Shown here: positions 1,668 through 42,735 of the stretch, in pieces
Layout of the letters: each line of letters begins with the position of its first letter
Position numbering within the stretch: position 1 is the first letter of the stretch
From: Ignavibacteriales bacterium
Lineage (GTDB): Bacteria; Bacteroidota; Ignavibacteria; Ignavibacteriales; Melioribacteraceae
Length of the DNA stretch: 64,000 bases
Direction of reading: 5' to 3'
Assembly: GCA_026390775.1 (NCBI GenBank)
Contig: JAPLFF010000003.1
Span: 372,001 to 436,000, forward strand
The notes under the pieces: generated by a model
What the model was told of the DNA's origin: nothing
Seen by the model: the letters and a program-made list of their open reading frames with translations, nothing else
Database searches by the model: none
Position numbers and translations under genes: made by a program

Positions 1668-2890
<1,223 letters not shown>

Positions 2891-2891
<1 letters not shown>

Positions 2892-3217
2892 TGGAAATTC
2901 TTTTAGCAATGGCACCTTCACCGGATGGATCAGGCGGCGGAGGAAGTATGGTCAGCACTTTGATCATGTTCGGTGCAATCTTTGCAATCTTTTATTTCAT
3001 GATTATTCGTCCCCAGCAAAAGAGAGCAAAAGAAAGAGCAAAACTTTTATCAGCAATTGAAAAAGGCGATAAGGTTATAACAAGCGGCGGTATGCACGGT
3101 ACAATTGCCGGCATTGAAGATAAAATTGTTTTACTTGATGTTGGAAATAATGTTAAAATGAAATTCGACCGCTCTGCAATTGCTACAGTATTAAAAGAGA
3201 ACTCAGACAATAAATAA
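2891..3217 (+). CDS. yajC: Sec translocase accessory subunit YajC
   Basis: A 108-residue protein with one membrane segment (about residues 20-40, MVSTLIMFGAIFAIFYFMII) followed by RPQQKRAKERAKLLSAIEKG, the signature of YajC. The cytoplasmic part (about 50-100) has the usual GDKVITSGGMHGTI core. YajC associates with SecDF in the inner membrane. The tgt-yajC pairing is the common bacterial arrangement, although secD and secF do not follow here. The start overlaps the tgt stop by one base. Confidence 0.95.
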
Positions 3218-41912: not shown

Positions 41913-41945
41913 ATGAAAAAACCCTCTATAATAGAGGGTTTTTTG
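41913..41945 (+). terminator. Rho-independent terminator
   Basis: ACCCTCTA (41921-41928) pairs with TAGAGGGT (41932-41939), followed by six Ts and preceded by As, so it may also act on the minus-strand tRNA transcript. Confidence 0.9.
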
Positions 41946-42019
41946 TGGGCCCTGAAGGACTTGAACCTCCGACCCGCTGATTATGAGTCAGCTGCTCTAA
42001 CCAACTGAGCTAAGAGCCC
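41946..42019 (-). tRNA. tRNA with CAT anticodon (Ile2 or elongator Met)
   Basis: A 74-base cloverleaf on the minus strand: acceptor GGGCTCT/AGGGCCC, D arm AGCTCAGTTGGTTAGAGC, anticodon stem GCTGA/TCAGC with loop CTCATAA, and T arm GGAGG-TTCAAGT-CCTTC. CCA is not encoded. The TTCAAGTCC T loop and GACTCATAATC arm look more like the lysidine-modified tRNA-Ile2 than elongator Met, but the two cannot be separated with certainty by eye. Confidence 0.95.
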
Positions 42020-42178: not shown

Positions 42179-42210
42179 TTGCAACGAATTGAAAAAAAAG
42201 TTTATATTTG
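42179..42210 (+). promoter_or_regulatory. Bacteroidota-type promoter, apparently the original tRNA-Leu promoter
   Basis: TTG (42179-42181), about 21 bases, then TATATTTG (42203-42210), matching the TAnnTTTG -7 box. The tRNA-like GCCGGGG begins 12 bases later, the spacing expected for a tRNA promoter, but what follows is a split tRNA fragment and a GIY-YIG gene rather than the tRNA itself. Confidence 0.65.
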
Positions 42211-42222
42211 CACCGCGTTTTT

Positions 42223-42269
42223 GCCGGGGTGGCGAAACCTGCCTACCGGCAGGCAGGTTGGTAGGCGCA
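42223..42269 (+). pseudogene. Partial tRNA-Leu copy split by a palindromic repeat
   Basis: 42223-42237 and 42258-42269 together match the first 27 bases of the intact tRNA-Leu at 42521 in 25 of 27 positions. The 20 bases between them (42238-42257) are the palindrome found elsewhere in the window, inserted in the D-loop region. The anticodon and 3' half are absent, so no tRNA can be made. Confidence 0.9.
42238..42257. repeat. Short palindromic repeat
   Basis: CCTGCCTACCGGCAGGCAGG, an imperfect palindrome. Related copies lie at 3254-3268, 29244-29262 and 45858-45880. Here it interrupts the duplicated tRNA 5' segment; in frame it would encode CLPAGR. Confidence 0.85.
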
Positions 42270-42515
42270 TATAAAAATATATATACAGTTTATGCTATCG
42301 AAAGTGTAAAGAGAAATTATATCTATGTTGGGTTAACAAATAACCTTGAACGACGATTTCTGGAACATAATTTAGGTTATAATAAAACAACAAAACCCTA
42401 TAGACCTTTTAGAATTTTATATTTTGAAGAAGTTTCTGGAAGAATAGAAGCTCGTAAAAGAGAGAAGTATTTAAAATCTGGAATTGGGAAACAGTTCTTA
42501 AAATCAGTGAAGTAA
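42258..42515 (+). CDS. GIY-YIG endonuclease domain protein
   Basis: A single-domain GIY-YIG nuclease. The family halves are YTVYAI and NYIYVGLT, then the catalytic-region LERRFLEHN with its arginine and EARKREKYLKSGIGK with the glutamate and the C-terminal lysines. The open frame goes back to a TTG at 42189, but that part is translated tRNA fragment and palindrome. Within the domain the family-typical start Met aligns with an ATA codon at 42273, so the true start is uncertain; the TTG at 42258 is one option. It lies between a partial and the intact tRNA-Leu. Likely a selfish or homing endonuclease; target unproven. Confidence 0.8.
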   Translation: MVGAYKNIYTVYAIESVKRNYIYVGLTNNLERRFLEHNLGYNKTTKPYRPFRILYFEEVSGRIEARKREKYLKSGIGKQFLKSVK

Positions 42516-42520
42516 TATCT

Positions 42521-42606
42521 GCCGGGGTGGCGGAATTGGTAGACGCACAGGACTTAAAATCCTGTGGGTGGTTTCACCCGTGCCGGTTCGAGTCCGGCCC
42601 TCGGTA
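42521..42606 (+). tRNA. tRNA-Leu (TAA)
   Basis: An 86-base class II tRNA: acceptor GCCGGGG/CCTCGGT, anticodon stem CAGGA/TCCTG with loop CTTAAAA (anticodon TAA), long variable arm GGGTGGTTTCACCC, and T loop TTCGAGT. CCA is not encoded. Its first 27 bases are duplicated at 42223 on the other side of the GIY-YIG gene. Confidence 0.97.
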
Positions 42607-42653
42607 CTTTAATTTGTGATATGGGTTTTATAACAATGACGAAGTAATTCTGC

Positions 42654-42727
42654 GGGTTCTTAGCTCAGTTGGTTAGAGCGTCTGCTTGACGTGCAGAAGG
42701 TCATAGGTTCGAATCCTATAGAACCCA
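42654..42727 (+). tRNA. tRNA-Val (GAC)
   Basis: A 74-base cloverleaf: acceptor GGGTTCT/AGAACCC, D arm AGCTCAGTTGGTTAGAGC, anticodon stem TCTGC/GCAGA with loop TTGACGT (anticodon GAC), T arm with TTCGAAT. CCA is not encoded. It follows tRNA-Leu by 47 bases, probably on the same transcript. Confidence 0.96.
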
Positions 42728-42735
42728 CAATCTAT

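Follow-up and report, generated by a model that had tools for sequence, protein, structure and literature searches.

How did a small GIY-YIG nuclease gene come to lie between a promoter and the tRNA gene behind it, with the 5′ end of that tRNA repeated upstream? The question was raised by a window of 64,000 nucleotides (the whole stretch of DNA that was analysed) from an Ignavibacteriales bacterium. A preliminary description, made from the sequence alone, had proposed that a single gene was inserted at the 5′ end of a tRNA gene, with the intact tRNA kept and a partial copy left upstream; this proposal is supported by the empty sites in relatives and the family survey reported here.

The insertion at tRNA-Leu(UAA) and the same site in relatives

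The Bacteroidota-type −7 promoter element of tRNA-Leu, TATATTTG (42203–42210, + strand), is now split from its tRNA by an inserted segment of 298 bp (42223–42520, +), consisting of a partial tRNA-Leu, the GIY-YIG gene and a short spacer, which is missing at the empty sites of four relatives (G003, G005, G010 and G011). The segment can equally be described as a displaced 5′ tRNA part of the host, followed by the gene and a 5′ part borne by the element. As stated in the preliminary description, the promoter element at 42203 is followed by 12 bases and then by the start of the partial tRNA-Leu at 42223, both being visible in the sequence. The identity of the copy to the real tRNA in 25 of 27 bases was likewise borne out, with one mismatch in tRNA positions 1–15 (42223–42237, +) and one in positions 16–27 (42258–42269, +). 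What had been missed is that the copy is split in its D-loop by a 20-bp GC palindrome, CCTGCCTACCGGCAGGCAGG (42238–42257, +), of a class common to most Leu-type copies in two phyla. A short linker lies between the palindrome-split copy and the frame of the GIY-YIG gene (42258–42515, +; stop at 42513–42515), and the intact tRNA-Leu(TAA) (42521–42607, +) matches that of an empty-site relative at 87 of 87 positions. Screening of the window with Rfam returned tRNAs only and no intron, tRNA-Leu being uninterrupted, and no recombinase gene was found within the 298-bp insertion. Transcription of tRNA-Leu by read-through from the old promoter, as presumed earlier, is plausible and untested.

Two further tRNA genes adjoin the locus. 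For tRNA-Val(GAC) (42654–42728, +), invasion by gene-less pseudo-tRNA arrays was seen in other genomes (L031, L035). For tRNA-Met(CAT) (41945–42019, −), a GIY-YIG insertion with a 3′ partial copy was observed in the relative G005 (L010, C60 near 2862–3068), the adjoining tRNA-Leu site of which is empty.

The encoded protein of about 80 residues matched PF01541 over the gathering score (E = 5e-16) and was modelled with AlphaFold2 as a confident single GIY-YIG domain (pLDDT 95), with no separate DNA-binding domain in the model to account for isotype specificity. In the alignment of profile A1, built from 25 tRNA-linked small GIY-YIG genes, residues Y8, Y19, R29, H33 and E65 were invariant and G21 nearly so. 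The UPF0213 structures 1zg2 (BH0048, E = 5e-16) and 1ywl ranked first in a PDB profile search, so that the protein meets the description of a UPF0213-like single domain (about 80–100 aa, nearest relatives UPF0213); the nearest PDB fold match was SLX1 (6seh, TM 0.72 on the query). Relatives begin with MY.VYA at an ATG, at which position the window frame has ATA (42279). Among the usual start codons, the closest in frame is a TTG at 42258, within the partial tRNA. The catalytic residues of the window copy are intact and the ATG is lost, and decay may be under way.

At the tRNA-Leu locus, four genomes of the same genus (L009–L012) were empty, with TATATTTG followed by 12, 12, 12 and 13 bases and the intact tRNA-Leu. 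It had been predicted that deletion of 42223–42520 would restore the promoter element, 12 bases and the tRNA, and that relatives might carry this junction; the arrangement was thus recovered as predicted. Five further genomes of the genus (L013–L016 and L021) contained a hairpin-bearing partial tRNA-Leu without the gene. A single genus thus shows this one site in all three conditions, occupied, empty and remnant. For the other upstream-type insertion of the source genome, at tRNA-Ser(TGA), three relatives had clean empty sites (G003, G005 and G008), and at tRNA-Cys two tandem GIY-YIG copies were present in the source genome vs one in G008. A free-standing homing endonuclease is expected to have its own gene outside any intron or intein and to be present or absent at its cognate site in close relatives; the former was met here, and the latter for both tRNA-Leu and tRNA-Ser.

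Association with tRNA genes, isotypes and hairpins

Seven PF01541 genes were identified in the source genome, and all four small ones lie at tRNAs, namely at tRNA-Leu, at tRNA-Ser and as the tandem pair after tRNA-Cys, the latter with 3′ partial copies. Across the same bacterial family, an intact tRNA was located within about 620 bp in 75 of 152 small GIY-YIG genes (74 on the same strand), and a partial copy of the same tRNA was found across the gene in 49 of the 54 testable members, above all 100 shuffles. Profile A1 was matched in 182 of 296 genomes across the Bacteroidota phylum. A phylum survey then covered 80 genes, located in 60 regions of other families and classes and in two array regions: a tRNA within 700 bp was recorded for 69 of the 80, always on the same strand, and a partial copy for 64 of these 69, above every shuffle. 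Since the regions were the best-scoring matches to a tRNA-linked profile, this fraction is valid for the clade and not for small GIY-YIG genes at large. Where no family gene was nearby, control tRNAs had copies at comparable distance in 4 of 133 regions (3%) and, for immediately adjacent regions, in 14 of 94, strong control matches including gene-less remnants themselves. The association with tRNA genes and partial copies, which had been left to be checked, was therefore systematic in both surveys, as it was in the retrieval of Leu-clade proteins described below.

In two outer clades of GIY-YIG genes from this bacterial family, hardly any gene lay at a tRNA (57 of 58 were elsewhere), which makes the tRNA link specific to one clade and speaks against a general association of GIY-YIG genes with tRNAs. 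At 20 loci of the outer clades that were tested, no Rfam RNA reached the gathering score.

The insertions followed two layouts. In the upstream layout, as in the window, a 5′ partial copy whose first base is exactly tRNA position 1 is followed by the gene and the intact tRNA; in the downstream layout, the intact tRNA is followed by the gene and a 3′ partial copy running to the last tRNA base, after which the tRNA's own terminator is often copied as well. Both layouts were present in the Leu clade and in the Ser clade. Copy boundaries varied between tRNA positions of about 9 and 57, and no single cut site can be defined for this reason. Tandem arrays reached up to 5 genes, with exact tandem arrays at L262 and L263. 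At four upstream-type loci (L062, L166, L004 and L082), the nuclease frame was seen to enter the intact tRNA and to take its last codons or its stop there.

Judged from the sequences, most branches of the family appear to keep each to tRNA genes of one amino acid. Nuclease trees were grouped by tRNA amino acid with 32 label changes vs 86 in shuffles (minimum 15); Ala labels were scattered in the tree, and not every isotype group was clean. Because near-copies inflate label-change counts, the nearest-relative test was restricted to different taxonomic families: the same isotype was obtained for 81 of 124 genes, the shuffled mean being 14 and the maximum 27 (500 shuffles). In a separate retrieval, named genomes were searched for proteins resembling the Leu-associated clade, with their context ignored. 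A tRNA was present at 72 of the 80 loci, in 71 cases tRNA-Leu (any of five anticodons) and in one tRNA-Ser, and partial copies were found at 68 of the 71 tRNA-Leu loci. The retrieved loci lay in Bacteroidota and Patescibacteria, lineages of the latter making up about a quarter. The sister clade of an Ala-type gene adjoins tmRNA, an RNA with an Ala-like acceptor. Small GIY-YIG genes near the tmRNA gene were noted at L105, L109, L118 and L121, those of L105, L109 and L118 being sister to the Ala-tRNA-linked gene; inspection of L109 by eye showed no partial copy of tmRNA.

By a folding test, a GC-rich hairpin insert was detected in 82 of the 148 partial copies. The inserts lie in, or at the edge of, the D-, T- and anticodon loops. 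The hairpin type follows the isotype. In Bacteroidota and Patescibacteria alike, most Leu copies carry the 20-bp palindrome CCTGCCTGCCGGCAGGCAGG; double hairpins of 22 nt are found in Ser and Pro copies, and other types in Arg copies. As the 20-bp palindrome also occurs a few times elsewhere in genomes (10 of 20 distinct contexts examined were not tRNA), it is likely to be either an independent repeat or a shared module. Elsewhere in the source genome, members of this palindrome family were located at G000 C7:87536, C7:478207, C7:1298781 and C8:78827, and the palindrome is mostly preceded by purine-A and followed by T or C. Gene-less arrays were found in three forms: nine 77-bp pseudo-tRNA-Leu units followed by the intact tRNA-Leu (L363, 1480–2260), five hairpin-bearing pseudo-tRNA-Val units directly beside the intact tRNA (L031, 2160–2830, minus strand), and three near-full-length pseudo-tRNA-Val with altered loops, again directly beside the intact tRNA (L035, 970–1430).

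Proposed mechanism and rival explanations

The window element is probably one copy of a single-gene, homing-like mobile family living in tRNA genes. This reading draws on the observed presence and absence at the same site, the partial copy of the same tRNA, insertion on either side, the tie between nuclease lineage and isotype, and the spread over two phyla; cleavage is inferred. On a chromosome without the element, the nuclease would cut within the cognate tRNA gene, a step for which no cleavage has been observed, and a donor copy would serve to repair the break, its nuclease gene standing between two tRNA-derived arms, the partial copy and the intact gene. These arms would act as homology arms while the nuclease gene is copied in, so that neither an integrase nor a matching outer flank would be needed. 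One tRNA half would be re-supplied and the tRNA gene left intact, the displaced 5′ half (in the window) or 3′ half (elsewhere) persisting as the partial copy. Recombination between the tRNA and its copies could give tandem arrays, and decay of the gene would leave gene-less, hairpin-bearing tRNA remnants. Insertion on both sides within the Leu and Ser clades is to be expected if the cut falls within the gene and repair can rebuild either of its halves. Repair from a tRNA-armed donor would in this way account for both insertion sides, independence of the outer flanks, isotype fidelity and tandem arrays.

Two loci, L296 and L323, which were taken as orthologous sites on account of the neighbouring prs gene in common, were 90% identical from the start of the copy to the end of the tRNA. 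The alignment stops at both borders, and the outer flanks were not alignable. Four-fold sites differed at 5 of 18 positions in the nuclease gene vs 70 of 125 in prs; the contrast, which rests on 18 sites only, suggests a later transfer of the element and does not prove it.

The weak point of the homing model is self-protection, which is unexplained since the intact tRNA next to the nuclease gene matches an empty-site tRNA at all 87 positions; no sequence basis for resistance to cutting was found in the occupied-locus tRNA itself. Weak or decaying enzymes, the sequence context, or hairpin copies serving as sinks might provide protection, none of which has been tested. Neither the role of the hairpins nor the gene-less arrays are explained by the model. 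"Homing-type" is accordingly used as the best reading of the element, no cleavage having been shown.

Hairpins and arrays are the features to which an explanation at the RNA level would appeal, by which the protein is an isotype-specific, toxin-like tRNA nuclease, the hairpin-bearing pseudo-tRNA a decoy or antitoxin RNA that would inhibit it in the manner of a type III-like toxin–antitoxin system, and the position of the gene a result of tRNA duplication. The hairpins do occupy loops (D, T and anticodon) that tRNA nucleases attack, structured pseudo-tRNAs can persist in arrays without a gene, and the nuclease lineages are isotype-specific. Such a system would, however, give no reason for the gene to lie directly next to the intact cognate tRNA, be it upstream or downstream, would leave the clean empty sites and the restoration of 5′ or 3′ halves unexplained, and would have to cope with a hairpin in little more than half of the copies (82/148); the nearest solved relatives (UPF0213, SLX1 and I-TevI) are moreover DNA nucleases or unassigned. 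It is regarded as unlikely. Still less can be said for the gene as mere cargo of a trans-acting recombinase, which would carry it as a passenger to tRNA genes, these being common attachment sites, and leave the partial tRNA as an att repeat. The downstream layout, with its intact tRNA, gene and displaced 3′ part, matches that of integrated islands, but the 298-bp insertion has no recombinase, upstream insertions have 5′ partial copies, the partial copies are long, variable and hairpin-bearing, and the nuclease phylogeny tracks the isotype across taxonomic families. Little credit was also given to local tandem duplication or slippage beside a long-resident GIY-YIG gene, with the copies as decayed duplicates. 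Exact tandem arrays, with the gene (L262, L263) and without it (L363), are in line with this account, which was nevertheless already disfavoured by the empty sites lacking both gene and copy in four (tRNA-Leu) and three (tRNA-Ser) close relatives, by the exact 5′ end of upstream copies and the exact 3′ end of downstream copies, and by the rarity of copies at control tRNAs.

Known systems and wider significance

Several established categories were tried and rejected. A group I intron with a homing endonuclease was excluded by the absence of an Rfam match and the uninterrupted tRNA, and an island driven by an integrase of its own by the lack of a recombinase in the insertion. For a phage or plasmid origin, phage matches were weak (37% identity), plasmid matches were not obtained, and IMG/VR contained 2 relatives vs 409 in genome contigs. 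Matches to known defence systems in PADLOC were sub-threshold only. A REP/RAYT (REP-associated transposase) element was dismissed, the palindrome being present without a RAYT in the insertion.

Group I introns are often located within tRNA genes, and the GIY-YIG catalytic domain is shared with their homing endonucleases such as I-TevI; the window, in contrast, has no intron. UPF0213 proteins (YhbQ/YazA-type, e.g. BH0048) resemble the window protein in being a single small domain; their annotation is that of conserved, non-mobile proteins rather than of elements at tRNA genes. SLX1, a structure-specific nuclease, differs as a eukaryotic repair enzyme with the partner SLX4 and extra domains. Islands, ICEs and phages integrated by a tyrosine recombinase likewise use tRNA genes, re-supply one tRNA end and leave a displaced fragment at the far end, whereas the window family has a nuclease and no recombinase, measures about 300 bp in total, is also inserted on the 5′ side and has hairpin inserts in the copy.

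The closest precedent is SegB of phages T4 and T6, a GIY-YIG homing endonuclease of the free-standing type from the tRNA gene region, which is reported to cut within tRNA genes at the motif RAWTSGAAC and to cause segmental tandem amplification (PMC13096335), a parallel to the tandem arrays of the present family. By our own reading, the reverse complement of this motif is GTTCSAWTY, the T-loop consensus, and on that basis SegB offers a precedent for the targeting of tRNA genes by a GIY-YIG enzyme. Like the window family, SegB is described there as a GIY-YIG protein outside introns; it differs as a phage gene of a tRNA cluster that does not insert at single chromosomal tRNA genes with a partial copy. 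An isotype-sorted family or hairpin-bearing copies are not reported there (PMC13096335).

No description of elements of the present kind was found in the literature searched, from which most subscription papers and preprints were outside the scope, and priority is not certain. Apparently, the tRNA-gene GIY-YIG elements form a large, undescribed family in Bacteroidota and Patescibacteria. They are filed as a variant of free-standing homing elements, and a wholly new class stays open. The bolder proposition would define that class as integrase-free, single-gene parasites of tRNA genes, which radiated by isotype, move between the cognate tRNA genes of species via tRNA-derived arms and restore the tRNA, with the hairpin marks on the displaced half protecting or regulating the element; it is a serious possibility without being the favoured one.

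tRNA genes are known as landing sites of large integrase-driven islands, and here one nuclease of 80 residues would do likewise. The isotype-sorted lineages provide a natural panel for studying the recognition of a tRNA gene by a nuclease of this small size. The family also bears on the survival of an element beside its own intact target, and on the origin of tRNA pseudogenes and palindromic repeats in Bacteroidota and Patescibacteria. If the nucleases cut as predicted, they could serve as compact site-specific tools aimed at tRNA genes.

A related GIY-YIG clade was observed with the inverted repeats ACCCCGTGAGAT and ATCTCACGGGGT as borders (L088, 1450–2430; L091, 1470–1760; L172, 1960–2260, where the repeats are shorter). 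Its members appear to be inserted in protein genes, namely a RAYT-like transposase gene and a tyrosine recombinase gene, as if this clade were another mobile form.
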